64,000 nucleotides of DNA from Onishia taeanensis. Its GTDB lineage: Bacteria; Pseudomonadota; Gammaproteobacteria; Pseudomonadales; Halomonadaceae. Under the pieces are notes generated by a model, which worked only from the letters and a program-made list of their open reading frames with translations, had not been told where the DNA came from and did no database searches. Of this stretch, positions 12,119 to 54,775 are shown piece by piece (positions within the stretch are counted from its first letter, which is position 1; every line of letters starts with the position of its first letter). The stretch covers positions 372,001 to 436,000 of the forward strand of contig NZ_FNCI01000003.1 of NCBI RefSeq assembly GCF_900100755.1. The letters are read 5' to 3'. The translations under genes and the position numbers were made by a program.

Positions 12119-12595
12119 ACGGTTCTCCCGATAGTCGTTGGGATGCAGGCCGTTCAAGGCCATGCTGCGATGCAAAATAGATTAGCGCGAAAACCTGCCA
12201 GCTGTCACTGACTGCTGGCAGTTAGGCGCCAGCAACCAAGCACGCATCAGGTGCCCAGCGGCGTTGCACGCTCGCCGCCAAGGGGGCTAATGCTGTGTAT
12301 GTAAAGCAATGGTGATAAGCCCTGCGCCACACGCCAATGAAATGCACCAAAAAGCCTCGCCACCTGGATCAATGCACACAAATAAAGCATCAGAAAACGG
12401 CGTAAGACTGAAAAATCATCCCAACCAATTGTTTTTATTCGCCTAAGCAAGCCGGCATAAATAGTGCATGGATCATGGCGATGCACCTAACGGGCTCACC
12501 AGCCCGTCGTGCTGGGCCATCGCCCGCCAATGCCGGCCGATTACCGCACCAAGGTGGTTCGGCCATCACCTTCCACACGCTAATTCGGGTACGCC
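12119..12595. other. Intergenic region upstream of the ammonium transporter gene
   Basis: About 480 bp between divergent genes. It contains an inverted repeat CTGCCAG (12195-12201) / CTGGCAG (12215-12221) without a T run, and an AT-rich stretch near 12360-12470. TGCAC half-sites occur near 12350, 12373 and 12482 and faintly recall NtrC sites, but none forms a full palindrome and I find no convincing sigma-54 promoter. A leftward 79-codon frame here (12247-12486) looks non-coding. Confidence 0.4.
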
Positions 12596-35468: not shown

Positions 35469-35744
35469 CTACTTTCGGTCGTGGCCGACCTGGAGCTGCT
35501 TCTTGCCCTGGGGCCTTGCGTCCTGCCAGGAGATGCGGATATCCAGGCGGTGATGGCTGTCTTCCTTGCGTACCGTCACCTTGAGATTGAGCAGGCCCTT
35601 GGGAGTGAGGTGAATCTCGCCATCTTCGTCGGAAAAGGACAGCACGCCCTTGGCCAGCCCCTTGGTGATCGATTTCAGGATCTCCTGAAGCCCTTTGATG
35701 CTCTGCAGGGATTCATGCCGGAAGGTGGTCTTCTCAGTGTCCAT
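35469..35744 (-). CDS. Amphi-Trp domain protein (GAK cluster)
   Basis: 91 residues matching the small amphi-Trp domain (TIGR04354 as I recall): FRHESLQSIKGLQEILKSITKGLAKGVLSF shown by its start FRHESLQ, then LTPKGLLNLKVTV and a tryptophan in IRISWQD. The domain alternates hydrophobic and charged residues and has no known enzymatic role. It is the last gene of a leftward cluster with an HprK-related kinase and an ATP-grasp protein. It could be the carrier or target that those enzymes modify, but that is inference. Confidence 0.82.
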   Translation of the reverse strand: MDTEKTTFRHESLQSIKGLQEILKSITKGLAKGVLSFSDEDGEIHLTPKGLLNLKVTVRKEDSHHRLDIRISWQDARPQGKKQLQVGHDRK

Positions 35745-35809
35745 GGAGTGAATAGATTCCTTGCGATAAATGAGGCTGAGTTCGGGACGCCGAGGGAAAG
35801 GCCGGCTCT

Positions 35810-37168
35810 TCAGGCGCCCGGCGCCTCCGCCGGTGAGAGGTGGCGCGCCGGCTCGAATACCTTGGCGTGGGGGTGATCATTGCTGATACCGATGACCTTG
35901 CCGTCAGGATGAATGATGGTGACGCCCACGCCGTGCCCTTCTAGCCCCTCCTTGCGCCGCGAATTCCGGTCCAGGGTAATGTCCCCCTCGATATGCATCA
36001 TGCCCTGCCTGAGCATGATGTGCTGTCCGGTGGTGCGATTGATATGGCCATGCACGACGGCATGCACCCCCTGGCGGAAAGCGCGATCGACGCCCTGGCG
36101 AGTCAGCGGCAAGTCGACCTTGCGGTACTTGGTGCGCATGGTGTTCGCCAAGGTGCCGTAATAGAACTCGAAAAGGTCATGCTTGATCTGGTCATCGAAC
36201 ATTCGGTTAAGGGACTTGACGCTTTCGAGCTCGATCACTTCAGTAATGCCATCGTCGAGGCCGGCGTGAATGAACAGAAAGGAGCCTTCGCGGTGGGCCA
36301 GCTGCATGGCCCGGAAGAACCAGGCAAAGTCCCCCTTGCGGTGCATGAACTGTGCTTTTGCCTCCAAGGCCGTGGCATAGACCTCGCGCATGGACAGCCC
36401 CGCCTTTTGACAGGCGTCTTCGAAGGTGTCGACCTTCTTGCGCATTCGCGAGAGCTCACGTTCGATGTTGCGCTGAGACATCAAACGGCCGGCCTGAGGC
36501 GGGAACGTCTCGAACCAGTTATCCGAAGGAAACAGCCGCCGCCGGCATTCCTCGGCGCTCGGGATACCCTTCAGCGGCTTCGTGCGCGCCTTGAGGTAGG
36601 TATCGTGAATCTCGCGCAATAATGGCACGACCTTACTGCCCATTCGCACGAAGAGGTGTTCGGTCTCGGGTGAGCGAGGTTCCTCTAGGGCACGCAAGCC
36701 CATCAGCAGGCGCACGTCGTGATTGCCGGCCAGCAGCTTGACCCGCGCCCCGGTGTCGAAGAGCGCCTTGACGCTACGCAGCAGGTCGAGATTGCTCGGC
36801 CCCTTGTCGAGACAGTCGCCGCCAATCACGAACAGGCCCTGGCGGCCAGGCTTGGTCAAGGCGAAAGCATCATGCTCGGGGCCGGTCTTCTTCACGCCAC
36901 CGGAAGCCACCAGCGAGGCGCTGAAAGCAGCGGCATCCGCATGGGGGTCCGAGACGAAATAGACGGGGCGTTTCGGCCACTTCAAGGGGCTCAGTGAGGC
37001 AGCACGGTTCATCACCGCGGAAAAGTCGCTCCGCTGGCGATGCGCCTTGTCCGCGGCACGTTCGCCGCCAAGCCGCCAAGGTTCGGCTGTGCTGGGCAGC
37101 CCCTCGGGCATCCAGCACTTCTTGCCCTTGTAGTGTGGAAGCACTGCGTCAGCATCTTGGTTCGCCAT
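35810..37168 (-). CDS. Calcineurin-like metallophosphoesterase (GAK cluster)
   Basis: 452 residues from the ATG at 37168 (the upstream TTG at 37189 is rejected). The metal-binding motifs of the family are in order: SDPHAD, GGDCLDKGP, AGNHDVR and VHGHINR, with a helical insertion of about 150 residues between the third and fourth. Such enzymes hydrolyse phosphomono- or diesters; this one would act in the cytoplasm, since it has no signal peptide. It lies 91 bp after the histidine phosphatase gene, with a strong hairpin in the gap. Confidence 0.85.
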   Translation of the reverse strand: MANQDADAVLPHYKGKKCWMPEGLPSTAEPWRLGGERAADKAHRQRSDFSAVMNRAASLSPLKWPKRPVYFVSDPHADAAAFSASLVASGGVKKTGPEHDAFALTKPGRQGLFVIGGDCLDKGPSNLDLLRSVKALFDTGARVKLLAGNHDVRLLMGLRALEEPRSPETEHLFVRMGSKVVPLLREIHDTYLKARTKPLKGIPSAEECRRRLFPSDNWFETFPPQAGRLMSQRNIERELSRMRKKVDTFEDACQKAGLSMREVYATALEAKAQFMHRKGDFAWFFRAMQLAHREGSFLFIHAGLDDGITEVIELESVKSLNRMFDDQIKHDLFEFYYGTLANTMRTKYRKVDLPLTRQGVDRAFRQGVHAVVHGHINRTTGQHIMLRQGMMHIEGDITLDRNSRRKEGLEGHGVGVTIIHPDGKVIGISNDHPHAKVFEPARHLSPAEAPGA

Positions 37169-37220
37169 GATCCGGCTCCCGTTTATCAATGCCCCCGAGG
37201 GTATGACGCCCTTGTGACAT

Positions 37221-37245
37221 GGCGATGACGCCGGCCGTCATCGCC
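37221..37245. other. Intercistronic hairpin in the GAK cluster
   Basis: Ten-bp perfect stem GGCGATGACG (37221-37230) / CGTCATCGCC (37236-37245) with a five-base loop. It lies between the histidine phosphatase stop (37260) and the metallophosphoesterase start. No T run follows on the minus strand, so it is more likely an mRNA-processing or attenuation element than a plain terminator. Confidence 0.55.
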
Positions 37246-37259
37246 ACTAAACAGCCTTC

Positions 37260-37988
37260 TCAATCCCGAAACTGGGCGTGCGGTCGACGCACCTTCCACG
37301 CGCCAGCGATATGCCGCCACCCCTCTACCTGATGGTATTCCAGCACAACCGGCCGGGCATGGTGCATGCTCAATTGGGCAATCTCGTCGAAGGCCAGAAC
37401 CCCCAAACGATATGCCGCATGGCGAAATGCCGCGCCGTGGCCCACGAAGACCTTCAGCACATCGGCTTCGCTGTGCCGAGCCAAGGCCTGCATCTGTGCC
37501 GTCAGGTGGCTCGCGACCCGCTCCCCGGCCTCCATCAGCGATTCCGCCCCCTGCAGTGGCAGGCGAAAATGACTGTCCGACTTCCAGTTGGCCGGCAAGC
37601 AGGGAAAGCGCGGGTCCTCGGCGATGATCGCTTCGATCTGGGCGGCGCTCAGGTTGGCGGCACTGCCAAGGCCACGCTCGGCCAGATCGTCGAAGCCCTC
37701 GACCGCCACGCCGTGCCGGCCCTCTTCAAGCACCGATTGCATCAGACTGGCCGTCTGCCAGGCGCGCAGCAGGTTCGAGCTATCGATCTGTGTCGCCAGT
37801 TCACAGCCCAAGGTGCCGATCATGTCACGCAGCTCGCACCCCGCTCGCGTGGCCTGCTCACGCCCAACTGACCTCAGCGGAAAGGGCTGGTGGGCGCTGG
37901 GCGTATCCGCAAGCTGATGATAGTCGCCGTGCCGCACTAACGCGGCCAACAGCCTGGGTTGCCGATGGCTCGATTGTGGGTGCGTCAT
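37260..37988 (-). CDS. Histidine phosphatase family protein (GAK cluster)
   Basis: 242 residues with the phosphoglycerate-mutase-like fold. The phosphorylated histidine motif RHG is at residues 19-21 (ALVRHGDY), the second histidine is in VGHGAAFRHAA, and an intact acidic loop is present. It removes phosphate from an unknown substrate. Its ATG overlaps the stop of the SixA-Nudix gene (37985-37988, ATGA), so the two are coupled. Confidence 0.86.
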   Translation of the reverse strand: MTHPQSSHRQPRLLAALVRHGDYHQLADTPSAHQPFPLRSVGREQATRAGCELRDMIGTLGCELATQIDSSNLLRAWQTASLMQSVLEEGRHGVAVEGFDDLAERGLGSAANLSAAQIEAIIAEDPRFPCLPANWKSDSHFRLPLQGAESLMEAGERVASHLTAQMQALARHSEADVLKVFVGHGAAFRHAAYRLGVLAFDEIAQLSMHHARPVVLEYHQVEGWRHIAGAWKVRRPHAQFRD

Positions 37989-39004
37989 GATGATGGCCTC
38001 TTGGCCGGGGGAGCCTCAGCGGAGGCTGCCTCAAGGCGGTACGACAGCTCATGCACCATGGCGCCAAGACGCGGCTGCCGAAGGCATTCCGCCGCCTGCT
38101 CGGCCGACATCCATTGCCGAGCCCTGTGCGGCTCTTCGCGTGCCTCGTCTGCCAACTCCCGAGTGACGCGCATGGAGAAGACGGTGACCTCGCAAGGGGC
38201 TCCCCATTTGCGGTAATGATAGTGACCAAGCGCCGGGGCATCGGTATCTCCCTCGATGCCGGCCTCTTCTAGGGCCTCCTTGTGGGCAGAGGCCTGAAGA
38301 CTCAGCCCCGGCTCGGCAATGCCCTTGGGCAGGCTCCAGTGGCGGTTGCTGCTCGAACCGATCACCAGCACCTCGAGCCTCCCCTGGCGCATCCGATAAG
38401 GCACGACCGCCGACTGAACATAGTAATAGGCTGGACGCTCACGGCGCTCAGGGCCATCGGGGAAGGGAAAGGGAAAGTGCTTGGGAAGCTCCCTCGCCCG
38501 GCGGATCTCCAGCAACCGGGCATTGCCCGGGCCGAGCTGCGACCAGGCGCCATCGATGGCCAGGCGAACGAGACTGGCGGTCGGCAACAGCTTGCCGTCA
38601 CCTGCCAACGCCGGCGGCTCGGGCAACAAGTAGTCCAGCAGCTCTTCGAGGTCCGGATTATGGCCAACCAGCATGAGGCGCCGAATGCTATCCGGCGCAC
38701 CGGCGATGCAGGCTACCAGCGTCTCTGGCGTCCCGTGGTAGAGGGCCGGGGCGACTTCGAGCTCATCGGTCGTCGCGCCCATGGCTTTCAGGCATTTCTC
38801 GGCAGTGGCCCTGGCCCGCAGCGCCGGCGACGCCAGTACCATCTGGGGCACCAGCGCCTGCTGCGCCAGCCAGGCGCCCATCCGCTGGGCGCCGAGCTTG
38901 CCACGCTTCTTCAAGGGCCGCTGCTGATCCGCTACCGGCTGCGACCAGTCGGACTTGCCGTGGCGCAGCAGCAGAAGCTCGCGGGATGTCGATTGCCGGC
39001 TCAT
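37985..39004 (-). CDS. SixA-like histidine phosphatase fused to a Nudix hydrolase (GAK cluster)
   Basis: 339 residues. Residues 1-170 are a SixA-type histidine phosphatase (LLLLRHGKSDW, RHG at 14-16; second His in VGHNPDLEELL). Residues 200-310 are a Nudix domain with HWSLPKGIAEPGLS and KEALEEAGI. The Nudix box departs from GX5EX7REUXEE: Leu in the first Glu place and Lys for Arg, a variant seen in similar fusions. Mycobacterial MutT1 carries the same two domains in the opposite order. Substrates may be nucleoside or inositol-type polyphosphates. It overlaps its neighbours by ATGA at both ends. Confidence 0.86.
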   Translation of the reverse strand: MSRQSTSRELLLLRHGKSDWSQPVADQQRPLKKRGKLGAQRMGAWLAQQALVPQMVLASPALRARATAEKCLKAMGATTDELEVAPALYHGTPETLVACIAGAPDSIRRLMLVGHNPDLEELLDYLLPEPPALAGDGKLLPTASLVRLAIDGAWSQLGPGNARLLEIRRARELPKHFPFPFPDGPERRERPAYYYVQSAVVPYRMRQGRLEVLVIGSSSNRHWSLPKGIAEPGLSLQASAHKEALEEAGIEGDTDAPALGHYHYRKWGAPCEVTVFSMRVTRELADEAREEPHRARQWMSAEQAAECLRQPRLGAMVHELSYRLEAASAEAPPAKRPSS

Positions 39005-40179
39005 GGCGCCCCGCTCTCTTCTCCCGCTGGCCCCTCCGGCGACGCTTCGCCATTCAGGCCCAGCAACGCCGGCAGGTGGTGGCCGGCCAACAGCTCGAAG
39101 TCGACCGTGCCGCTAACCTCATAGACAGGCACGCCACTCAGTGCCGCCAGGTAGGCTTCAGGGTCGAGCGGCGTCTGGTCATCCAGGAATCGTCCTTGGG
39201 CATCCTGATACAAGGGCCCTGGCGATTTCATCACAGCGTCCAGCAATTCTGGGCGCTGGTTGATATCTACTCGCTCACAGCGCACCGGCTGCCTTCCGTC
39301 GCGCCGCCAATTGAGAATCACCACCGCCGCCAATCGGGCCTCGCGACACAGGCGCCCGGGCCCATACAGCTCGTCGATCATCACATCGTACTTTTCCTCG
39401 AGATCCCACAGCGCCTGCCTGGGCATGGAAAGCCAATGCTTGCGCTGCTCAGCAGACACCAGCGAGGACAGGCGCTTGCTATGCACGATGGTGCCAGGAT
39501 TGATACGCGGCAGTTTGGCAATACCCGCGGCCTGCACGCCTTTCTCGTCTTGGCGGATAAACAGCCGGTCATTGGTCAAATAGTCGAGCGCCGGGTGTTC
39601 CATGGCGGTGAGCATGGCCGTCGACTTGCCGCCGCCGGAAAAGCCGGCAATGGCCACCGCCTGATCGCCCCTCGCCAATCCAGCAGCATGGCAGATCAAC
39701 CAGTCCTGCTGCTGAAGGTCATTCATGTACTGGGCATTGATGAAGTTGATGACCTGGTTGTCGTTGGCCTCGCAAGGGCCGGCGGCAATGCGCCAGGTGT
39801 CACTCTGCAGGAACACCATGCCGGTGCGCACCTTGCGCAACAGCCGCCCGCCCCGCAGGTCGACATAGCTGTCCTTGCGGCCCGTCTTGCCGGGCTCGCG
39901 CGCCCAGTCGCTGAAGTTCAGCGACATGGCCGGCGGCGGGCACTCGATCGCCAGCACCTCGATATCAGGCAGGCGATCCGGCGCGAGGTAGGCGTGAAAG
40001 TAGCGGTTCAGGGCGTCAAGCAAGGGGCGCGAATTGGAGCGAATGGCCAAGGTGCGGCGCCCAACGTCGATCACCAGAGACGTCTCCAGCATGCTGGCAT
40101 CGCCGCACAGCGCCTGGGCGGCCTCCTCCACGCTAATCAGTCGGTCATCGTTCATCGTATCGATCAGGATATCGCTCAT
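39001..40179 (-). CDS. HprK-related kinase B (GAK cluster)
   Basis: 392 residues. A P-loop GFSGGGKST at residues 179-187 resembles the HPr kinase/phosphorylase loop, and the region after it (VVILNWRR and the helical tail) follows the HprK fold. There is no PTS HPr gene nearby. The protein fits TIGR04355 (HprK-related kinase B), the hallmark of the GAK system. It probably phosphorylates a protein or small carrier; the target is unknown. It overlaps the ATP-grasp gene (40176-40179) and the SixA-Nudix gene by four bases each. Confidence 0.86.
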   Translation of the reverse strand: MSDILIDTMNDDRLISVEEAAQALCGDASMLETSLVIDVGRRTLAIRSNSRPLLDALNRYFHAYLAPDRLPDIEVLAIECPPPAMSLNFSDWAREPGKTGRKDSYVDLRGGRLLRKVRTGMVFLQSDTWRIAAGPCEANDNQVINFINAQYMNDLQQQDWLICHAAGLARGDQAVAIAGFSGGGKSTAMLTAMEHPALDYLTNDRLFIRQDEKGVQAAGIAKLPRINPGTIVHSKRLSSLVSAEQRKHWLSMPRQALWDLEEKYDVMIDELYGPGRLCREARLAAVVILNWRRDGRQPVRCERVDINQRPELLDAVMKSPGPLYQDAQGRFLDDQTPLDPEAYLAALSGVPVYEVSGTVDFELLAGHHLPALLGLNGEASPEGPAGEESGAP

Positions 40180-41060
40180 AGTAAGGCCAACACATGGTCA
40201 GTGTAGGCTGCCGCCGCATCGATGCCCGGTCCCTCTAGGGCACCACGAAAACCACCGAATGCCGACACTTCGAAAATGACCGGGCCCTGTGCCGTCTCGG
40301 CCACATCGACGGTGGTGAAATCCATGCCAAACGGCGCCTGAGCACGCCTGGCCAGCTCGATCATCGACTCGGGCGGTTCATAGGCCGCATAGCGGCCACC
40401 ACTGTGGATGGTGGTGTTCCAGGTATCGTTCTGGGAGACCCGCGCATAGGTTCCCAGGTAGCGCCCGGCGAGAAACACCATGCCCAGGTCACGGCCCGGA
40501 AGGACGATCTTGCGCTGCAGATACATCATCGGATTGTGGCGACGAAATGCCTCGATGTCTCGGCGCAGCTCCCGCTTGGGCTGATCGGCCTTGATCACAC
40601 ACATGCCGCGCGCCTTGGTGGAATAAAGCGGCTTGAACACCGCCTCCCCATACTCGCGAACCGCTTCGAGGGCCTGGTCGACATCTTCGGTCACCAGGGT
40701 CTCCGGCATCGGAATGCCGGCCTTGCGCAAGCTGATGGTGCAGCTCAATCGATTGATCAAGCGCAGGATATTGTCGGCACCGCTGAAGACCTTGACCCCT
40801 CTGGCCTCGGCCATGCGCAGTAACTCCAGCCGGTCGAGCGTGTTGGGGCTGTACTCACCGCCAATCTTCTTGACGATCAGGGCGTCCAGCTCGCCGAGGT
40901 CCTGTCCCTTGAAGCGAATGGCGCCGCTGCCCAGGTCGAGGGCGACCTTGGCCATGTCGATCACCAGGCGGTAGCCGGTTCGCGCTTCGACGGCATCGGC
41001 CAGCACCTCGGTGGACCACTTGCCCGGAATACCAATCACGCCGATTTTTGGGTTAGTCAA
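40176..41060 (-). CDS. RimK-like ATP-grasp ligase (GAK cluster)
   Basis: 294 residues with an ATP-grasp fold of the RimK type: the N-terminal KIGVIGIPGKWS, NRLSCTISLRKAGIPMPET, then the ATP-binding VFKPLYSTKARGM and the metal-binding end VIFEVSAFGGFRG. ATP-grasp ligases join an acyl-phosphate to an amine or thiol. It fits TIGR04356 (GAK-system ATP-grasp) as I recall. It overlaps the PhoU-APH gene by eight bases and the HprK-related gene by four. Confidence 0.86.
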   Translation of the reverse strand: MTNPKIGVIGIPGKWSTEVLADAVEARTGYRLVIDMAKVALDLGSGAIRFKGQDLGELDALIVKKIGGEYSPNTLDRLELLRMAEARGVKVFSGADNILRLINRLSCTISLRKAGIPMPETLVTEDVDQALEAVREYGEAVFKPLYSTKARGMCVIKADQPKRELRRDIEAFRRHNPMMYLQRKIVLPGRDLGMVFLAGRYLGTYARVSQNDTWNTTIHSGGRYAAYEPPESMIELARRAQAPFGMDFTTVDVAETAQGPVIFEVSAFGGFRGALEGPGIDAAAAYTDHVLALL

Positions 41061-42711
41061 CGAAGATCTCCTTCAGAGGAATTCTAAATTTGTCGGCCTT
41101 GTCGATATCCGCGGCCAGCACTAACTCGATCAAAAAGCGTGCACGCAGAAACATGCTGCGGGCCAGTGACTTATCGAGAATGAAGCGAGTGGAGGTGGCG
41201 AATGAACGTGCCAGTCCCAGCGCCAGGCGCAGTTCGAAGGTCGTGTCCTGCTGTTGGTTGGCGTGGCGCCGCGCCACCCGGTAGATCTCCATGGCCACCC
41301 GCATGATGCGCTCACGCAGCGGGGCATCCCTGATCTGTAGCCGGTAGTTGGAGACCATGAACACCGAGACATCCTGCACATAATCCATGTAGCTGGAGCG
41401 GTGTAGATCGATAAAGTTGATTCGCTTTTCCAGCGGATCATAGATGATATTGTCGACGTTGAAGTCGCCATGGATATAAACCGCGAAAGGCGCCACCAGA
41501 GAGGCTTCTCGCTCTTTGGCCTGCTCGACCAGGGTGTCGAAAGCGGGCAGGTCGACCCCGCACAGGCGCAGGTCGCCGCGATGAAACTCGGGATGAATCT
41601 TGTAAACGTCGTCCAGGCGCTTTTGAAGCTGTTGCATATGGCGTGCGGCCACGCCCTCTGGGGTAAACGTCTCCTGCCAGACCGAGCGCAGCGTGCGAGT
41701 CAGATATTTCACTGCTTCATCGACCAGCTCGGTCGACTCATTGAGCAGCAAGTGCTCGAACGTAAAGCCGGGTAGATGCTCGATCAGCAGGGCCGCGGAT
41801 TGGCCGCGCTTCTGATAAGACAGAATCTTCGGCGCCAGGCCCGGATAGATCTCGTGCCAGCTTTCAACGCCCTGCCGCTCCTCCTTCACCTTGCGCTTGA
41901 CGCCGTCCTTGAAGATGGCGACATAGCCGTTTTCCCGCGCATTCGGCGAGCGGATACCGGAGATCGCGCTGCCAGAGCGCGTCTCTGCCAACGGCTCGAT
42001 ACTCAAGGCTTCCTCGCGGTTATCAATGTCATCCACCAGCGACTGCAGGGAGTGATAGCGCTCGAAGTTGACCGGCTGACCGAGATTGGCGGAGATAATC
42101 ACTTCGCTGATATGCAGAAGCGTCGCCGCCATCTGGCGAATGGCATGGGCGACAAAGAGGCCTCGCGTCAGCGCCTCGGTGTTGTCCTTCTTCTTCAGGG
42201 CCGCCACATAGCTCGCGAGACGCAGGCGATAGGCTTTTTCGAGACCGTTCTGCAACTGCCCCAAGCGCAGCGCCAAGGGCGTATCGTTCTCAGCAACCGC
42301 CGGCTCGACGAGCTGAATGCCGCTGCGAATGCTCTCCACCATGGCGCGCAGTGCCTGGGGCTCGAGCCCTGCCAAGTCGTCGACTTCCTGCAGATGCCTG
42401 ACGCAGTCCCGCGTAAGTTCGGTGAGGCGCTCGAGATCGGTGGCGATGAGCTCGATGCTACGCAGCATCTGCGGCAGACTGCTGCGGCGGTGTTTCTTGG
42501 CCGACAGCCGCCTCATGCAGTCGTTATGAATGCGCATCTTGAGGTTATAGGCATAGCCACGGCGATCGAGAAGCCGATGGGCAATGGCCGTGGTGGGCGT
42601 CTCTAGAAACTGCTCGAAACTGGCCAACTGCGAGTCCACTTCAACGCACAGGAAACGCAGGTTGTCCTCGATACTCTTAGGCGGTCGAGTCGTCATGAAA
42701 AGCGCCGGCAT
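41053..42711 (-). CDS. PhoU-like domain fused to an aminoglycoside-phosphotransferase-type kinase (GAK cluster)
   Basis: 552 residues. The N-terminal half (about 1-225) is all helical and resembles PhoU. The C-terminal half is an APH/choline-kinase-type domain with HGDFNVDN (His414, Asp416, Asn421; the Brenner motif HGDxxxxN) and FIDLHRSSYMDYVQDVS, the metal-binding segment. It is likely an ATP-dependent small-molecule kinase, with PhoU as a sensor or interaction part. Starts at 42711 and 42696 are both possible; neither has a good ribosome-binding site, which is expected as it overlaps the Nudix gene by 35 bp and may be coupled to it. Confidence 0.78.
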   Translation of the reverse strand: MPALFMTTRPPKSIEDNLRFLCVEVDSQLASFEQFLETPTTAIAHRLLDRRGYAYNLKMRIHNDCMRRLSAKKHRRSSLPQMLRSIELIATDLERLTELTRDCVRHLQEVDDLAGLEPQALRAMVESIRSGIQLVEPAVAENDTPLALRLGQLQNGLEKAYRLRLASYVAALKKKDNTEALTRGLFVAHAIRQMAATLLHISEVIISANLGQPVNFERYHSLQSLVDDIDNREEALSIEPLAETRSGSAISGIRSPNARENGYVAIFKDGVKRKVKEERQGVESWHEIYPGLAPKILSYQKRGQSAALLIEHLPGFTFEHLLLNESTELVDEAVKYLTRTLRSVWQETFTPEGVAARHMQQLQKRLDDVYKIHPEFHRGDLRLCGVDLPAFDTLVEQAKEREASLVAPFAVYIHGDFNVDNIIYDPLEKRINFIDLHRSSYMDYVQDVSVFMVSNYRLQIRDAPLRERIMRVAMEIYRVARRHANQQQDTTFELRLALGLARSFATSTRFILDKSLARSMFLRARFLIELVLAADIDKADKFRIPLKEIFVD

Positions 42712-43177
42712 AAGCCAAGGAGGTTGAACCCTGCTCGGCGGCGCGAATCAGCGACGGCAAGCAGGAGGAAAGGTATTCGGGGGTGAAGGTCAGTTCAGGG
42801 AGTGTGTCGATATCGACCCAGCAAACGTCCAACTGGCGCTTGTCCGGCAGAGGCCCGTTACCGGCGACATAGTCGGCGGGCAGCATGCAAAGGAAGATGA
42901 AGTCCACCAGGTGGCGCCGGCTGGGCGGCTGGGTGTCCTTACGCTTGAAGACATCGCATACCGTCACCAGCCGCGGCGCGTCGACCCGGGCACCGATCTC
43001 TTCCAGGCATTCGCGCTGCAGGGCATCTTCAAGGGTTTCGCCTGTGCCCTGTGCGCCGCCGGGCAGGGCATAGCGCCCGCCCTGCTTGCGCAGCAGCAAC
43101 ACCTGATGGTCGCGCAAGATCAGAGCACGCGCCGTATTACGCACACCGGAAAGTAGGTCGGGCAGTCGATCGGGCAT
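42677..43177 (-). CDS. Nudix hydrolase (GAK cluster)
   Basis: 166 residues from the ATG at 43177 (preceded by AAGGA; a GTG at 43195 is possible). The Nudix box is complete, GGAQGTGETLEDALQRECLEE with the required Gly, Glu and REUXEE spacing (shown by its start GGAQGTGE). It hydrolyses a nucleoside diphosphate linked to another group; the exact substrate is unknown. It is the first gene of the leftward GAK unit, opposite the CofD-related gene, and overlaps the PhoU-APH gene. Confidence 0.86.
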   Translation of the reverse strand: MPDRLPDLLSGVRNTARALILRDHQVLLLRKQGGRYALPGGAQGTGETLEDALQRECLEEIGARVDAPRLVTVCDVFKRKDTQPPSRRHLVDFIFLCMLPADYVAGNGPLPDKRQLDVCWVDIDTLPELTFTPEYLSSCLPSLIRAAEQGSTSLAYAGAFHDDSTA

Positions 43178-43219
43178 GGGATCCTTGCTGATCACGGCTC
43201 ACATATCGCCGACAAGCTT

Positions 43220-43280
43220 ATCATCCACTCAATGAACCTCTGGTTACAGTCATTGACTTGATAGATCTGGCGTGGATGAT
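43220..43280. promoter_or_regulatory. Inverted repeat in the divergent GAK promoter region
   Basis: ATCATCCAC (43220-43228) and GTGGATGAT (43272-43280) are exact inverted copies about 43 bp apart between the divergent Nudix and CofD-related genes. A candidate rightward promoter, TTGACT (43253-43258) with GATGAT (43275-43280), overlaps the right arm. The placement relative to both genes suggests one regulator acting on both units. Confidence 0.5.
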
Positions 43281-43321
43281 CGTTGCCATTCACGGATAGC
43301 GCCACGCTTCAGGACGCCAAG

Positions 43322-44527
43322 ATGATCAATGTCAGGGTCACACGCAATGCCCAAGTCCCGGACCCGTTGCGGATCCGGCGCTGCCAGAAAACCCCCGAAC
43401 TCGGCCCACGGCTGCTCTTCTTCAGCGGCGGGTCAGCACTCAACGGCCTGTCCAAGAACCTGCAGCACTACACGCATAACTCGATTCACCTGGTCACGCC
43501 GTTCGACTCCGGCGGCAGTTCCGCCAAGCTGCGCGATGCGTTTCGCATGCCGGCCATCGGTGACCTGCGCAGCCGCCTGATGGCCTTGGCCGACGACTCG
43601 ATACTTGGCCACCCGGAGGTCTACCGCCTATTCCAGTATCGCCTGCCCAAGGACCGGCCAGCCCTGGAGCTGGAGCGGATGCTGGCGGCCTTGGCCGATG
43701 GCAGCGACCCCCTGATGCGCGACATAGCCAATCCGATGCGCAAGCTGATTCGCCACCAGCTCGGGTATTTCTGCGCCGCCAAGCCGGACGACTTCGACCT
43801 GCGCGGGGCCAGTATCGGCAACCTGATCCTGGCCGGCGGCTACCTCAACAACCATCAGCACCTGGACCCGATCATCTTCCTGTTTTCCAAGCTGGTGCAC
43901 GTGCGCGGCACCGTTCGGGCGATCGTCAACCGGGATTATCATCTGGCGGCCCAGCTGCAAAACGGCGATACCCTGCTCGGCCAACACCGGCTCACCGGCA
44001 AGGAAGTGGCACCGCTCGACTCGCCGATCGTCCATCTCGGCCTATCCCGACAGCCGGATGCCAATGAGCCCGTCACCGCCAAACTGCGTGAGAAGAACCG
44101 CCGACTGATCGCGTCGGCAGAGCTGATCTGCTTTCCCCCCGGCAGTTTCTACTCGAGCTTGATCGCCAACCTGCTGCCGGCAGGCGTGGGTCAGGCAATC
44201 CGCGACAATGCCAGCCCCAAGGTGTTCATTCCCAATACCGGAACTGACCCCGAGCAGCTTGGCATGAGCCTCGAGCGCCAGGTCGATACGCTACTGGGTC
44301 AGTTACGCCTGGATGCCGGTGACGCCACCCCGACCGGTGAGCTTCTGAACTTCGTGCTCCTCGACAGTCGAGGCGGCGACTACGCCTTGGATATCTCGAT
44401 AGAGGAACTGGCCGGACGCTGGGCCGAACGGGGCATTGCCATGATCGATACCCGACTGATCAGCGAAGACAGCGCGCCCTACTACGACAATGATCTACTG
44501 ACCTGCGCGCTGCTGTCTCTGGTTTGA
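43322..44527 (+). CDS. CofD-related protein (GAK cluster)
   Basis: 401 residues from the ATG at 43322, which has AGGA. The N-terminal RLLFFSGGSALNGLSKNLQ and TPFDSGGSSAKLRDAF match the phosphate-binding start of the CofD/YvcK fold. It fits TIGR04357 (CofD-related, GAK system). CofD makes the lactyl-phosphate link of coenzyme F420, but no other F420 gene is here and YvcK-like relatives bind UDP-sugars instead, so the reaction is open. It diverges from the leftward GAK genes and shares their control region. Confidence 0.86.
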   Translation: MINVRVTRNAQVPDPLRIRRCQKTPELGPRLLFFSGGSALNGLSKNLQHYTHNSIHLVTPFDSGGSSAKLRDAFRMPAIGDLRSRLMALADDSILGHPEVYRLFQYRLPKDRPALELERMLAALADGSDPLMRDIANPMRKLIRHQLGYFCAAKPDDFDLRGASIGNLILAGGYLNNHQHLDPIIFLFSKLVHVRGTVRAIVNRDYHLAAQLQNGDTLLGQHRLTGKEVAPLDSPIVHLGLSRQPDANEPVTAKLREKNRRLIASAELICFPPGSFYSSLIANLLPAGVGQAIRDNASPKVFIPNTGTDPEQLGMSLERQVDTLLGQLRLDAGDATPTGELLNFVLLDSRGGDYALDISIEELAGRWAERGIAMIDTRLISEDSAPYYDNDLLTCALLSLV

Positions 44528-49132: not shown

Positions 49133-49203
49133 CCTCCGCTCGACGTCGTCGGCGCTCGGCGGCGCCCATCTTGGTTATCCACTTCTCGCTGCATGGGCGG
49201 GCT

Positions 49204-49794
49204 ATGACCCACTATTTCCTGATTCTGGTCAGCACGGCGCTGGTCAACAACTTCGTGCTGGTGCAGTTTCTCGGTCTCTGCCCGTTCATGGGGGTCTCCA
49301 ACAAGCTGGAGTCTGCGATGGGCATGTCGCTGGCCACCACCTTCGTACTGACGCTGTCCTCGGTGGCAAGTTACCTGACCTTTCACTACCTGCTGGCCCC
49401 ACTGGGGCTCGAGTATCTGCGCACCATTGCCTTCATCATGGTGATCGCGGTGATCGTGCAGTTCACGGAACTGATGGTGAAAAAGGTCAGCCCGCTGCTT
49501 TATCAGGTGCTGGGCATTTTCCTGCCGCTGATCACCACCAACTGTGCGGTACTCGGCGTGGCACTGCTATCGCTCAACCGTCAATCGAGCTTCATGGAAG
49601 CTGCTCTCTATGGCTTCGGCGCGGCACTGGGCTTCTCGCTGGTACTGGTGCTCTTCGCCGCCATGCGCGAGCGCCTGGCGGTAGCCGATGTGCCCCGCCC
49701 CTTCCGAGGTGCCGCCATTGCCATGATCACGGCGAGCCTGATGTCGCTGGCCTTCATGGGCTTCTCGGGGCTCGTGCAAGTAGGGCAGAGCTGA
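49204..49794 (+). CDS. rnfA: Rnf electron transport complex subunit A
   Basis: 196 residues (E. coli RsxA has 193), six membrane segments. The frame begins [18 protein letters not shown] (shown by its start) at the ATG at 49204; an upstream GTG-type extension is rejected. RnfA and RnfE form the inverted pair of membrane subunits that bind an intramembrane Fe-S cluster; the conserved cysteines are in LGLCPFMG and ITTNCAVLG. It opens a six-gene operon. Confidence 0.95.
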
Positions 49795-50427
49795 ATGATG
49801 CTGGAATGGATCAACGACCACGGCATTCTGGCCGCCATTTTTGCCCTTGCCGGCCTGTCGGTCGCTTTGGGCGCCCTGCTGGGCTATGCAGGAGAGCGCT
49901 TTCGCGTCGATGACGACCCAGTGGTCGAACGCATCGACGCCCTGCTGCCCCAGACCCAGTGCGGCCAGTGCGGCTATCCCGGCTGCAAGCCCTACGCCGA
50001 GGCCATCAGCCAGGGCGATGTAATCAACAAGTGTCCGCCCGGCGGCGATGCCACCATCGCCGCCCTGGCCGATTTACTGGGTCGGGAGGCCACGCCGCTG
50101 GATGGTGAGGCCCAGGACGCGCCACGGGTCGCCTATATCCGCGAAGACGAGTGCATCGGCTGCACCAAGTGCATTCAAGCCTGCCCGGTCGACGCCATTC
50201 TCGGCGCCGCCAAGCACATGCACACCGTGATCGCCGACGAATGCACCGGCTGCGATCTATGCCTGGAGCCCTGCCCGGTGGACTGCATCGACATGATTCC
50301 CCGCGACGACGACGCCTGGCAGCCGCCGCTGCCGGCAGGCCCCGGCCACCGCCCGACGGCACTGCTAATTACCAGTGACCGGGCGCAACCACCCCATACG
50401 CCACGCCAGGAGGCCACCCATGGCTAG
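49795..50427 (+). CDS. rnfB: Rnf complex subunit B (ferredoxin-like)
   Basis: 210 residues. An N-terminal membrane anchor is followed by the cluster motif CGQCGYPGC with a later cysteine, then two ferredoxin-type [4Fe-4S] motifs [12 protein letters not shown] and [12 protein letters not shown]. RnfB accepts electrons from ferredoxin or hands them on within the complex. Start codons at 49795 and 49798 are both possible. It overlaps rnfC by eight bases. Confidence 0.95.
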
Positions 50428-52234
50428 GGCCTTCGACTTCCCCGGCGGCATTCATCCTCCTGCGCGCAAGGCAGCCTCCACTCAGCACCGCATCGCCACG
50501 GCCGCCCTGCCGCGTCGGGTGATACTGCCGCTAGGACAGCACGCCGGCCAGCCCGCCGAGCCCTGCGTGGAAGTGGGGCAGCGGGTCGACACCGGCACCC
50601 GCGTGGCCAAAGCACAGGGCCTGATCAGCGCCGATGTGCATGCCAGCATCACCGGCGAGGTCGTTGCCATCGGCTCCTATCCGGTCCCACACCCTGCAGG
50701 CCGCGAGGAGACCTGCATCGTGATCGAGGGCGATGGTATCCGCGACGACTGGGCACTGCTGCCGTCACTCGATTGGCGCCGCGCCGATCACGCTACCCTG
50801 CACGCCCGTCTCGATGCCTCCGGCGTGGTGGGCCTGGGTGGCGCGGGATTTCCTACCCAGGTGAAAGCCAGAGTCCGCGAGCGAAACGCCATCGACACCC
50901 TGATCGTCAATGCCGCCGAGTGTGAGCCCTATATCAGCGCCGATGACATGGCCCTGCGTGAGCATGCCGCCGACGTGCTGGAAGGCGCCCGGCTGATAGC
51001 GAAGCTGAGCGGCGCCCAGCGCATCATCATCGGCATCGAAGATGACAAGCCCGAGGCGATAAGGGCCCTAGAGCGGGGCATCGCAGCCGGCCAGGCGCAC
51101 CCCCTTCCCATCAGCCTCAAGCCCTTTCCCGCCCGCTACCCTAGCGGCGGCGAAAAACAGCTGATCAAGCGACTGCTCGATCGCGAGGTGCCAAGTAGGG
51201 GCCTGCCGGCCGATATCGGCGTGCTTTGCCACAATCCCGGCACCCTGCTTGCCGCTCTGCAGGCCGTGCGCGACGGGCGCCCGCTGGTATCGCGCGTTAT
51301 CACCCTGACCGGTGAAGCCCTGGCACGCCCCGGCAACGTCGAGGCCCGCCTGGGTACGCCGATGAATGAACTGCTTGCCACTGCAGGCCTCGATGATGAC
51401 CGGCTCGCCCGGTTGATAATGGGCGGGCCCATGATGGGCATGGAGCTCTCGCGCCTCGACCTGCCGGTGGTCAAATCTAGCAACTGCCTGATCGCCGCCA
51501 CGCTTGATGAGCTGCCGCCACCGCCCGCCGAGCAGCCCTGCATCCGCTGCGGCGCCTGTGAAGATGCCTGCCCGGCCGGTCTGCTACCTCAGCAGCTCTA
51601 CTGGTTCGCCAGGTCCCGAGAGCACGAAAAGGCAGAACTGTTCAACCTCTTCGACTGCATCGAGTGCGGCGCCTGTAGCTACGTCTGCCCAAGCCACATC
51701 CCGCTGGTGGATTACTACCGCGCCGCCAAGAGCGAGATCCGCGCCAACGCCTTCGAGGCCCGCAAGGCCGAGCATGCCAAGCATCGCTTCGAGTTTCGCC
51801 AAGCCCGCATCGAGCGTGAGGCGGCCGAGAAGGAAGCGAGGCGCCAAGCGCGGGCCCAGGCCGCGAAACGCCCCACCAGCATGGCCGCCAATTCCACCAC
51901 GTCTGCTGCCGAATCGACGGCGCAGCCACAGCCGGCAACGGCAGATGCCGACCTCAAATCGTTGCGCATCGCCCAGGCTGCGGCCAAGGCCGCCGTGCGC
52001 AAGGCAGAAAAAGTCCTCGCCCGGGTCAGCCAGTCGACGAGCCACAAGGGGCAGCCTCAGGGACAGAGTGATGGCGAAATCGAGGATCTCGAGGTGCAGC
52101 TTGCCACCGCCCGGGAGAATCTCGCCGCCATTGAGGCGCGCCTGGCTGCGGCCAAGGACGCTGCAGCAGGCACCACTCAAGCGCCTACCCCACCAAGCCG
52201 ATCAGCGGACACCGATCAGGAGCGCACCCCATGA
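50420..52234 (+). CDS. rnfC: Rnf complex subunit C (NADH-binding side)
   Basis: 604 residues from the ATG at 50420, preceded by AGGAGG. The NADH/FMN-binding part has [15 protein letters not shown], and two [4Fe-4S] motifs follow ([24 protein letters not shown]). The C-terminal tail is Ala/Lys/Arg-rich coiled coil. RnfC exchanges electrons with NAD(H). It overlaps rnfB and rnfD, so the operon is translationally coupled. Confidence 0.95.
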
Positions 52235-53313
52235 GCCTGATGCATCAAAGCCAGGTGAGCCGACAGCCCACCGACACTGGCCGAGTCATGGCCTGGCTGC
52301 TGCTGTCGACCCTGCCCGGCATCGCGACCCTAACCTGGCACTTTGGCCTGGGGGTGCTTTCCAACGTGCTGCTGGCCGGTGCCTTCGGTATCGGCCTGGA
52401 GGCACTGGTACTGCGCCTGCGCCGCCGCACGGTTCGCCCGGTGCTCGCCGACAATAGCGCCCTGGTGACCGGCGTCTTGCTCGGCGCTTCACTGCCACCG
52501 GGCACCAGCCTATGGCTGATCCTGGTCGGCATGGTGGCGGCTATCGTGGTCGCCAAGCAGCTCTATGGCGGCCTTGGCCAGAACCCCTTCAATCCGGCGA
52601 TGGTGGGCTACGCGCTACTGCTGATCAGCTTCCCGGCCGCCATGACGCAGTGGGCGGCTCCCCACGGGCTGCTGAGCGCGGACGGCCTGTCTCTGGGCGA
52701 GCTGCTGGCCCGCGTCACTGGCATGAGCTCCGGTATGAACACCGGCCCCGGCGTTGACGCCTGGAGCGGCGCCACCCCGCTGGACGCCTTCAAGCACAAG
52801 CCCGATGCCCTGCTCGCCAGCGAGTTCTGGGCCTCGAATCCCTTGCCCGACGGCACCCAGGCGGCCTGGCGAAACGTGGCCCTGGCCTGGCTTGCCGGCG
52901 GTGCGCTGCTGCTCTACAAGCGCTTGATCGGTTGGCAGATCCCGCTGTCGATGCTGACGGCCATGGGCGTGCTGGCCGGCTTTTCGTATGCCGTCGACCC
53001 CAGCCACCATGGCTCGCCGGCCTTTCACTGGCTGAGCGGGGCCGCCGTGTTCGGCGCCTTCTTCATTGCCACCGATCCGGTCAGTGCGGCGACCAGCCGC
53101 AAGGGCAAGCTCTACTACGGCGCCGGCATTGGCGTGCTGGTCATGCTGATCCGTGAGGCCGGTGCCTACCCGGATGCGGTGGCCTTCGCCGTGCTGCTGA
53201 TGAACTTCACAGTGCCCTTCATCGACTACTACACCCAGCCCCGCACTCAGGGCCATGCCCGGCCCAATCGCGGCATCAAGGTCACCAGGCTCGACGACGA
53301 GGAGGCTTCATGA
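52231..53313 (+). CDS. rnfD: Rnf complex subunit D
   Basis: 360 residues, about nine membrane segments. The covalent flavin site is SGAT in DAWSGATPLDAF, with Thr182 as the likely FMN-bearing residue. RnfD is a membrane subunit that links electron flow to ion pumping. It overlaps rnfC and rnfG by four bases each (ATGA). Confidence 0.95.
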   Translation: MSLMHQSQVSRQPTDTGRVMAWLLLSTLPGIATLTWHFGLGVLSNVLLAGAFGIGLEALVLRLRRRTVRPVLADNSALVTGVLLGASLPPGTSLWLILVGMVAAIVVAKQLYGGLGQNPFNPAMVGYALLLISFPAAMTQWAAPHGLLSADGLSLGELLARVTGMSSGMNTGPGVDAWSGATPLDAFKHKPDALLASEFWASNPLPDGTQAAWRNVALAWLAGGALLLYKRLIGWQIPLSMLTAMGVLAGFSYAVDPSHHGSPAFHWLSGAAVFGAFFIATDPVSAATSRKGKLYYGAGIGVLVMLIREAGAYPDAVAFAVLLMNFTVPFIDYYTQPRTQGHARPNRGIKVTRLDDEEAS

Positions 53314-54074
53314 GCACGCCCTCTCACCGCCAGGATGCGCCGCAAGACGATGCCTCCCATCACCAAGCTCGCCGTAGTGCGCCAATGCGCCGCGCCATTC
53401 TCAGAGCCGCCGTAGGCCTGGGGCTCTTTGCCATGCTCACCGCAGGCATCGTCGCCGGCACACGCGCCTTGACCGCCGAGCGCATCGCCGATAATCGCCA
53501 GGCAAGCCAACATAGCCAGCTTGTGGAGGTGTTGCCTGAGGAGCTGGCCGATGTCGATATCCAGCGCCTTGTCGACGCCGCCTTCACGCTGCCGGCGAGC
53601 CCTGCGCTGGGGCAGATGGCCTCCTTCACGGCATGGCGAGCATCCAAGCAAGTCAACCAAGGGGAAGGCCGCCAGGACGCCGCCGCCGTGGTACTGCCGG
53701 TGATCGCCCCCAACGGCTACAGCGGTGACATCGAGCTGCTGGTAGGCATCACCGCGTCGGGCACCATCAGTGGGGTGCGGGTGACTCGCCACCAGGAAAC
53801 GCCTGGACTGGGCGATGCCATCGAGTCACGCAAGAGCGACTGGATCGAGGACTTCACCGGCCACAGCCTCGGCGACCCCGGGCCAAGCGGTTGGGCGGTG
53901 ACCAAGGACGGCGGCGACTTCGACGCCTTTACCGGCGCCACCATCACTCCTCGTGCCGTGGTGGACGCCGTGCATCGCAGCCTTGGCTATGTGCGCGATC
54001 ACCATGAGCGCCTGTTTGGCGACATGCCCGACACACCAACCCCCGACGCCGAACAGCAGGAAGCAATGCCATGA
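53310..54074 (+). CDS. rnfG: Rnf complex subunit G
   Basis: 254 residues. One N-terminal membrane anchor (about 27-50) and a periplasmic FMN-binding domain with TGAT in [12 protein letters not shown]; Thr211 is the likely covalent FMN site. The N-terminus is extended relative to E. coli by a Gln/His-rich stretch of about 25 residues. It overlaps rnfE by four bases. Confidence 0.94.
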
Positions 54075-54775
54075 GCCAGTTCAATGAACTCGCCCGCAAC
54101 GGCCTGTGGTCCAACAACCCGGCGCTGGTGCAGTTACTGGGCCTGTGCCCGCTGCTCGCGGTCAGCGGCAGCGTCGTCAATGCCCTGGGCCTGGGGCTCG
54201 CCACTCTGCTGGTGCTGGTCGGCTCCAACGTCTCGGTGTCGCTGATTCGCCACCATGTGCCCGAGACGGTGCGCCTGCCGGCATTCGTGATGATCATCGC
54301 CGCCTTCGTCACCTGCGCCGACCTGCTGATGCAGGCCTACACCTATCAGCTGCACCAGATACTCGGCATCTTCATTCCGCTGATCGTCACCAACTGCGCG
54401 ATCCTTGGCCGTGCCGACGGCTTCGCGGCCAAGAATCCGCTGCTGCCGGCGGCCACAGATGGCCTGATGATGGGGCTCGGCTTTGCCGCCGTACTGGTGG
54501 TACTGGGCGCAGTGCGCGAGCTTTTTGGCCAGGGCACCCTCTTCACCCAGATGGACCTGCTATTCGGGCCGATCGCCGCCAATTGGGGCATCACCGTCTT
54601 TCCCCATTACGACTTCCTGTTCCTGGTGCTGCCTCCCGGCGCCTTTTTCGCCACCGGACTGCTGATCGCCCTGAAGAACCTGATCGATGATCGCAAGGCG
54701 CGTCTTCGCGCCACACAGCAACCGAATAGCCCCACCGAGAATCGGCGGGTCAGGGTCACCGGCACCATCCGCTGA
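54071..54775 (+). CDS. rnfE: Rnf complex subunit E
   Basis: 234 residues, six membrane segments, the partner of RnfA in the inverted pair. The conserved cysteines are visible in [11 protein letters not shown] and [12 protein letters not shown]. It completes the rnfABCDGE order seen in Gammaproteobacteria. The complex couples electron transfer between ferredoxin and NAD to ion movement; which ion cannot be told from this sequence. nth follows at 86 bp, as in Pseudomonas. Confidence 0.94.

Follow-up and report, generated by a model that had tools for sequence, protein, structure and literature searches.

A GAK gene cluster of Onishia taeanensis encodes a histidine phosphatase with an invariant C-terminal aspartate, the candidate target of a RimK-type ATP-grasp enzyme

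Introduction

NCBIfam groups certain hypothetical proteins under the name GAK system, in model descriptions that name no reaction. Here we describe a GAK cluster at positions 35469-44527 of a 64,000-nucleotide stretch of the Onishia taeanensis genome (contig NZ_FNCI01000003.1, positions 372,001 to 436,000 of the forward strand; hereafter the window, meaning this whole stretch). With its four hallmark families in conserved order, the window cluster showed no difference from the named system, and it is an ordinary member of a system that has a name and no explanation. The GAK names were absent from the open literature that we searched, which comprised neither preprints nor subscription papers, and no paper there described the system or reported a reaction for it, in agreement with a preliminary description of this DNA that had called the chemistry undemonstrated. 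New here are the core gene set, an invariant C-terminal Asp in the histidine phosphatase (HP) of the system, and a link to phosphate genes that the preliminary description had not foreseen. We tentatively propose, at somewhat less than even confidence, that GAK is a phosphate-status control module in which the ATP-grasp enzyme would act on the C-terminal Asp of HP; every reaction in this proposal is one that we infer.

The closest described systems share single features with GAK. Ligases of the RimK, LysX and MptN types are relatives of the GAK ATP-grasp in sequence and act on terminal carboxylates; RimK and LysX do so at S6 and LysW, both at a C-terminal glutamate. The GAK enzyme differs from them by a Ser in place of an Asn, by a RimK score below cut-off, and by its candidate substrate, an HP ending in Asp. 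The LysW and ArgW carrier pathways resemble GAK in that a RimK-type ligase adjoins a protein whose acidic C-terminus does not vary; the candidate carrier in GAK, however, is a phosphatase with catalytic residues rather than a small zinc protein. The crh product is a target of HprK. GAK resembles the Bacillus subtilis glmR (yvcK) operon in its YvcK-type CofD fold, and that operon contains crh; its listed genes include none for an ATP-grasp, an APH kinase or HprK (PMC6171935). In Streptomyces, a ppk-pptA(CHAD)-Nudix operon under PhoR/PhoP control brings comparable folds together in the control of phosphate (PMC8003754). Similar folds also serve eukaryotic inositol-pyrophosphate control, in the ATP-grasp kinase and histidine phosphatase of PPIP5K (PMC11836120) and in Nudix pyrophosphatases, a theme to which PMC11323792 also belongs; the parallel is one of analogy, with no sequence membership of the GAK ATP-grasp. 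Among the open literature searched, no paper treated HprK, ATP-grasp, CofD and Nudix proteins together, and no title among those listed concerned a ligase paired with a phosphatase. A text search in the main body of two ATP-grasp surveys gave neither HprK nor a (histidine) phosphatase (PMC4431377, PMC8939145).

Results and discussion

The GAK histidine phosphatase ends in an invariant aspartate

The HP gene of the window (positions 37260..37988, minus strand) encodes a protein of 242 aa that matched Pfam His_Phos_1 with 56.5 bits and terminates in Asp242 (codon at 37263..37265, minus strand). Asp was the last residue in all aligned GAK copies, i.e., 90/90 members and 77/77 after reduction below 80% identity; the residues at -2 to -8 varied at 2.7-3.7 bits (77 sequences). 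The stretch following the conserved WKxR comprised 8 residues in 66/77 sequences and 7, 9, 10 or 11 in the other 11, which kept the Asp end. When the C-termini of all nine GAK families were compared, the most constant end outside HP was the Thr found in 20/30 CofD proteins; as a background, 31 of 658 other open reading frames (ORFs) longer than 150 aa in these loci end in Asp. The terminal codon was GAT in 47 cases and GAC in 42, all three stop codons occurred, and the distance to the next gene was variable, which places the constraint on the protein and argues against an overlap or DNA signal as its cause. The active-site set R19, H20, R75, E104 and H184 was kept in 90/90 members, and no close solved relative of HP was identified by sequence. 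These conserved-residue sets, like those given below for the other families, contain near-copies and omit ORFs that are open at a contig end or shorter than 75% of the window protein.

An out-of-sample search of 322 genomes of the order yielded 19 previously unseen HPs. All 18 that adjoined GAK genes ended in Asp; the 19th was a second copy in genome G916 (locus L192) with no GAK gene within the few kb read, and it ended in Ser. The HP of L166, from the phylum Planctomycetota, likewise ended in Asp, whereas none of six adjoining histidine phosphatases of another family did. A fixed end preceded by free residues has the look of a C-terminal modification site.

The ATP-grasp enzyme as the candidate ligase

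The RimK-type ATP-grasp (40176..41060, minus strand; listed ORF start TTG) scored 453.1 bits against the hallmark model TIGR04356 (cut-off 300). Residues K143, K149, R207, D252 and E264 were invariant in 101/101 sequences. Its relatives in the PDB were of the RimK and LysX types, i.e., C-terminal ligases, and the Pfam scan returned RimK, GSH-S_ATP and weaker ATP-grasp models, with no inositol kinase. After GAK itself, MptN was the top-scoring named relative (149.2 bits), and the model for RimK family alpha-L-glutamate ligases (TIGR00768) was matched with 91.8 bits, below its cut-off of 143.4. Because the operon combines an ATP-grasp of RimK/LysX type with an invariant HP end, we propose HP, rather than the amphi-Trp protein, as the protein substrate of the ligase; as judged from these sequence comparisons, the C-terminal Asp is a likely candidate target of the ATP-grasp. 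The preliminary description had suggested either a make-and-erase modification or a new phosphorylated metabolite, and the first of these fits the invariant, modifiable-looking C-terminus of HP.

Several observations weigh against modification of the Asp. Ser266 replaces the Asn of the ExN metal motif (giving ExS) in 101/101 ATP-grasps, so the chemistry may differ from that of RimK. Genomes G008 and G209 keep the ATP-grasp, yet no HP was found in either at E<=0.001, implying that in those genomes the enzyme needs another substrate or is a relict; in the enzyme of G209 (L127), just two of the near-invariant positions are changed. The tail of 8 residues in most HPs would also allow a docking tail of fixed length, and a single HP copy outside a cluster served as the control.

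These points lead to the alternative that survives best, although we regard it as rather unlikely: the Asp would be a docking or active-site residue that is never modified, the tail folding over its own pocket or into a partner, and the ATP-grasp would make a free amide-linked phosphorylated metabolite that is degraded by HP, the metallophosphoesterase (MPE) and Nudix enzymes. In some histidine phosphatases the active site is capped by the C-terminal tail. The predominance of one tail length agrees with this alternative, as do the two genomes with GAK and no HP, the presence of MPE and the kinase, but not HP, in all 65 loci counted below, and the position of MptN, which makes a small-molecule amide, as the best named relative after GAK. 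In contrast, the 11/77 tails of other length still end in Asp with their sequence free, as would be expected more of an accessible end than of a fixed pocket.

Composition, core and distribution of GAK loci

The preliminary description had reported a complete GAK cluster of nine genes, and the ORFs and hallmark scores bear it out: nine ORFs occupy 35469-44527, eight on the minus strand, with the CofD gene divergent. All four hallmark families (amphi-Trp, HprK-B, ATP-grasp and CofD) scored above the cut-offs of TIGR04354-TIGR04357, and the Pfam scan returned Metallophos, His_Phos_1, His_Phos_1 plus NUDIX, RimK, APH, NUDIX and CofD. The ATGA overlaps of 4 bases that had also been mentioned are present at three junctions, between ATP-grasp and HprK-B (40176-40179), HprK-B and SixA-Nudix (39001-39004), and SixA-Nudix and HP (37985-37988). 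The Nudix/APH and APH/ATP-grasp overlaps are longer than 4 bases, and gaps of ~70 bp and 65 bp precede the MPE and amphi-Trp genes, respectively.

Gene content was counted in 65 loci whose sequence reaches at least 4.2 kb beyond the ATP-grasp gene on the upstream side and 6 kb on the downstream side. APH, ATP-grasp and MPE were present in 65, HprK-B in 64, HP in 63, amphi-Trp in 61, SixA-Nudix in 42, Nudix in 35 and CofD in 32; a first count had removed overlapping ORFs and thus undercounted HP (62), HprK (63), amphi-Trp (58) and Nudix (29), and the recount is used here. The core, found in every locus with enough flank, is the PhoU-APH kinase, the ATP-grasp and MPE, whereas SixA-Nudix, Nudix and CofD are optional. 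The genes are kept together in relatives, as had been expected: APH and ATP-grasp were neighbors at least 64 times and ATP-grasp and HprK at least 59 times (lower bounds, overlapping ORFs having been removed), and MPE directly followed HP in 63/63 loci having HP. HP follows the ATP-grasp in L075, L078, L085 and L114, where HprK does not. The gene order repeats in Gammaproteobacteria, Alphaproteobacteria and a Stieleria (Planctomycetota) genome (L103), and this recurrence puts the cluster far beyond chance; a second genome of that phylum (L166) has the GAK genes in altered order. The smallest set, consisting of APH, ATP-grasp and MPE, occurs in L035 of genome G008, where no HprK-B, no CofD (E<=1e-50) and no HP (E<=0.001) was found at the thresholds used.

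The ATP-grasp scored above cut-off in 8/58 genomes including that of the window, in 13/398 Pseudomonadota (14 matches at E<=1e-60), and in 4/199 genomes of the Stieleria phylum, the Stieleria genome among them; GAK is thus patchy and wide in its distribution. All 14 of the matching Pseudomonadota genomes also had HprK-B, and in two further, less complete genomes of the 398 HprK-B was matched without the ATP-grasp, in one case by a fragment. Among 72,556 plasmid records, five carried the ATP-grasp; they belong to three Rhodobacterales genera, and the regions of three were read. One genus provided a natural pair (loci L130 and L143), in which genome G071 carries an eight-gene block between CofD and a Na/Pi symporter and another species, G063, is without the block; the aligned flanking blocks were 0.4 kb apart in G063 versus 7.8 kb in G071, with colinear flanks at 70-91% identity. 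This presence/absence pair shows that the block is one unit and that CofD lies outside it.

The kinases and the amphi-Trp protein

The gene for the kinase of the core (41053..42711, minus strand) encodes N-terminal helices of a PhoU domain fused to an APH-type small-molecule kinase (Pfam APH, 41.2 bits). The PhoU score in the window protein was 17.5 bits, below the cut-off of 23.5; PhoU was nevertheless matched in 54/61 family members at E<=0.01 (best 1.6e-16), from which the PhoU-APH fusion given in the preliminary description is real despite the sub-cut-off window score. The structural model had a predicted local distance difference test (pLDDT) score of 91.1, its kinase half matched APH(3')-Ia and choline kinases, and H414, D416, N421 and D435 of that half were kept in all 61 aligned sequences.

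HprK-related kinase B (HprK-B; 39001..40179, minus strand; TIGR04355, 344.7 bits, cut-off 200) had the P-loop residues K185/S186 and N203-D204-R205 in 91/91 sequences and a basic stretch, R94, K98, R101, K102, R112, K116 and R118, that was invariant or nearly so (83 to 91 of 91). It had no Pfam match at E<=0.01 and no close solved relative by sequence, the PDB entry for HprK, 1jb1, being reached only at E 0.5 by profile. By sequence, HprK-B resembles HprK in its P-loop and NDR motif only.

The amphi-Trp domain protein (35469..35744, minus strand; 91 aa) scored 59.3 bits against TIGR04354 (cut-off 31) and 25.2 bits against the Pfam model, just below the cut-off of 27. Its AlphaFold model comprised one helix and four strands (pLDDT 87.7); the best match in a fold search of the PDB had E 0.67, and a profile search of the PDB gave no relative better than E 0.018. 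The preliminary description had offered this protein as the carrier, and a corresponding alternative would have HprK-B phosphorylate it, as HprK does HPr and Crh, and the ATP-grasp ligate it. In its favor, it is small, its gene adjoins that of an HprK-like kinase, and Ser12 is present in 75/77 members; the B. subtilis glmR operon also contains crh (PMC6171935). Gene order adds to this: HprK, SixA-Nudix and amphi-Trp stay together in L096 and L117, where the order is altered, and HprK-B lies 1 to 3 kb past MPE in L075, L085 and L114, accompanied by SixA-Nudix in L075 and L085 and by amphi-Trp in L085. Against it, the C-terminus of amphi-Trp was not conserved in the comparison of family ends, Ser12 is Ala in L127 and L128 despite the presence of HprK-B in both, and the gene is missing from 4/65 loci, three of which have HprK-B. 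With the ligase-substrate-like end belonging to HP, we judge the amphi-Trp carrier improbable, and its part as ligase substrate was dropped on account of the varying C-terminal end; Ser12 is a weak candidate, from conservation, for the target of HprK-B. L166 has a second amphi-Trp-like ORF adjoining the first, partly masked in the record.

Phosphate and polyphosphate genes as neighbors

The ORFs of 85 loci were clustered without preconception, and CHAD and PPK1 were then searched in 69 whole GAK genomes. Recurrent neighbor families were a CHAD protein, a Na/Pi symporter, ParA, another histidine phosphatase, PhoU, PPK1 and another Nudix-like family, along with generic families (ABC ATPases, CNNM/CorC proteins and regulators). 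The CHAD, PPK1, symporter, ParA and CNNM identities were checked against profiles and the PhoU neighbor was assigned by eye; Pfam gave only CHAD for the CHAD neighbor, making the label "CYTH-CHAD" too strong. CHAD is a polyphosphate-binding domain (PMC6537752). CHAD genes lay within 10 kb of the ATP-grasp gene in 10/69 genomes versus 0.35 expected (Poisson 5e-12) and PPK1 genes in 5/69 versus 0.39 expected (5e-5). The 69-genome set omits named loci on contigs shorter than ~18.5 kb as well as G047, and keeps G089, G168, G175 and G207 on such contigs; two of the ten CHAD neighbors came from these four, without which the count was 8/65 versus 0.32 expected. L082, outside the set, also has a CHAD neighbor. 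On an ATP-grasp tree of 64 loci having 4.2 kb on both sides, from which plasmid copies and duplicates had been removed, the CHAD and PPK1 labels required at least 5 and at least 3 changes, giving 3e-5 and 0.007 when counted as events; label changes can reflect loss, and only 2 CHAD changes are required by the well-supported branches on their own.

Other neighbors were examined locus by locus; the counts for NptA, ParA, PhoU and PstS have no genome-wide expectation. The three-gene set of L035 is preceded by genes for an ABC ATPase, PhoU, an ArsJ-associated GAPDH and ArsJ (L035:3626-7552; GAPDH and ArsJ checked by profile), and chemotaxis- and sensor-like ORFs occupy its other flank. A detached CofD gene follows a ugp-type operon in L144 and, as judged from shared gene families, in L145, the assignment of the operon being based on UgpB above cut-off, a glycerophosphodiesterase below it (218.7/264) and other subunits by eye. 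It adjoins a Na/Pi symporter gene in L143 and, in the Cobetia-like L147, genes for an ABC ATPase nearest PhnT2 (349.9/457.7, below cut-off) and a phosphodiesterase. Among the other detached cases listed (L148-L161), no such phosphate neighbor was noticed. L147 also has an ArsJ-like ORF near the detached CofD. In the Roseibium-type loci L148-L154, the detached CofD is accompanied, by eye, by an ORF resembling a glycerate kinase and by a sugar ABC transporter along with an ORF of glycosidase type.

Upstream regions of the operons were scored for direct repeats like those of the Pho-box consensus. Repeats of period 11 were present in 17/92 regions, which include near-copies and three plasmid copies, versus an expectation of 4.3, derived from 760 further upstream regions in these loci; at a score >=20 there were 7/92 versus 1.1 expected, and period 15 also gave 3/92 versus 0.0. 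A first scoring yielded only p=0.019, and the rank test of the second yielded p=0.007. TGTNACA at gap 4 occurred in 8/92 regions versus 0.1 expected, a spacing test made after the matches had been seen.

Statistically, these results tie GAK to phosphate and polyphosphate genes in some of the lineages. Weighing against phosphate control as the role of GAK, 47/64 loci on the tree have no phosphate neighbor, and the phosphate families were chosen after the neighbors had been seen. The window itself speaks on the same side: the CHAD and PPK1 genes of its genome are on other contigs, no phosphate gene was noticed by eye beside the cluster, and its upstream region lacks a good Pho box (best score 15).

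The same neighbors could point to another role, in which GAK would be a turnover unit for polyphosphate or dinucleoside polyphosphates, the hydrolases acting directly on polyphosphate or Ap4A-like compounds and the kinases feeding them. The CHAD, PPK1 and Na/Pi symporter neighbors and the ApaH-like MPE and Nudix enzymes would suit such a unit, and ppk, a CHAD protein gene and a Nudix hydrolase gene share a Pho-regulated operon in Streptomyces (PMC8003754). We nonetheless give this role little credence, as it leaves the ATP-grasp and the C-terminal Asp unexplained, and CHAD had no match (E<=1e-5) in 11/69 GAK genomes and none within 10 kb of the ATP-grasp gene in 59/69.

The placement of CHAD relative to GAK varies: in L103 and L132 it precedes APH and shares its strand, and in L107 it comes after amphi-Trp. 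A gene for a CHAD protein followed by an overlapping one for a ParA-type ATPase recurs by GAK (L107:15428-17802, L132:1094-3324), and the two are possibly a granule-positioning pair.

A working model for GAK

The observed gene set, the conserved active-site residues, the invariant Asp of the GAK HP, the PhoU fusion and the phosphate-gene statistics can be assembled into a model of the phosphate-status module. The PhoU domain would sense the phosphate state and gate the fused APH-type kinase, which would phosphorylate a small hydroxylated molecule. The ATP-grasp would activate Asp242 of HP and attach an amino acid or an amine there, in the manner of RimK and LysX on S6 and LysW, and the extended tail would either switch the phosphatase or carry a substrate. 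MPE and the Nudix and SixA parts would strip phosphates and so render the state reversible, while HprK-B and amphi-Trp may form a second phosphorylation step. Carried further by analogy, GAK might be a new type of phosphate-status system in which a dedicated ligase extends or charges the Asp of an active HP, making it switched or substrate-carrying under a PhoU-gated kinase, and would then be the bacterial counterpart, in parts and logic, to eukaryotic inositol-pyrophosphate control; we consider this wider reading possible and doubtful.

The invariant Asp makes GAK testable by asking whether HP gains mass with the ATP-grasp, and the phosphate link points to the growth condition of interest. 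If true, the model would amount to a new kind of modification at protein C-termini and, for marine and halophilic bacteria, to an additional layer of phosphate control; GAK carriers include deep-sea tubeworm endosymbionts (L066, L067, L069 and L073).

Optional genes, remaining alternatives and surroundings of the window cluster

The divergent CofD/YvcK-like gene (43283..44527, plus strand; TIGR04357 CofD_rel_GAK, 537.6 bits, cut-off 340) is optional. A match at E<=1e-50 anywhere in the genome, sometimes distant from the cluster, was found in 50/69 GAK genomes (49 above cut-off) and none in 19/69; among the 398 Pseudomonadota there were 7 such matches, five of these within the 14 ATP-grasp genomes. 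The preliminary description had included the CofD fold in its reading of the cluster, but by these numbers it does not define the system; the window has the gene, so its membership is unaffected. Among NCBIfam models at E<=0.01 the protein matched only CofD_rel_GAK and the YvcK/GlmR-type TIGR01826 (109.9 bits, below the cut-off of 196), with no match to the F420 CofD transferase (2-phospho-L-lactate) model, and YvcK/GlmR proteins were its nearest solved relatives. By these comparisons the protein is YvcK/GlmR-like rather than an F420 transferase. An F420-like cofactor pathway using CofD and a glutamate ligase, to which the CofD Pfam domain and the RimK/MptN-like ligase might point, is therefore very improbable and was dropped, CofD being optional and YvcK-like.

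An equally improbable role as an anti-phage defense system, suggested by the patchy distribution, the plasmid copies and the clean presence/absence at one site, was dropped after a scan with PADLOC profiles, which matched none of 8/9 proteins and gave one weak Nudix match, and the nine genes include no nuclease or effector.

The MPE gene (35810..37189, minus strand; listed ORF start TTG) encodes an ApaH-like protein matching Pfam Metallophos with 31.1 bits; ApaH models match far below cut-off, and metal-ligand-like residues are conserved. An extra ORF, ApaH-like by eye, adjoins the cluster in L133, L136 and L137. The optional SixA-like phosphatase and Nudix hydrolase fusion (37985..39004, minus strand) matched Pfam His_Phos_1 and NUDIX, its SixA score of 65.7 bits being below the cut-off of 74.5; the catalytic His of the SixA half is present in 52/63 members and lost in 11/63. 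The optional Nudix hydrolase (42677..43195, minus strand) matched Pfam NUDIX with 58.7 bits. Where loci are split, a separate family that reads as Nudix accompanies HprK-B or CofD (L075:14467-15036, L085:14254-14826, L159:1815-2399), one member having no Pfam match (E<=1e-5) or NCBIfam match (E<=1e-10).

The closest named relatives of the window locus were Onishia taeanensis loci (93% in the ATP-grasp). A 1046-aa ORF flanks the cluster at one end, and a MetG-like ORF together with a short one flanks it at the opposite end. Elsewhere in the window, a PhaC-like ORF (10202-12175) and an Rnf-like operon (49171-54775) were recognized by eye.

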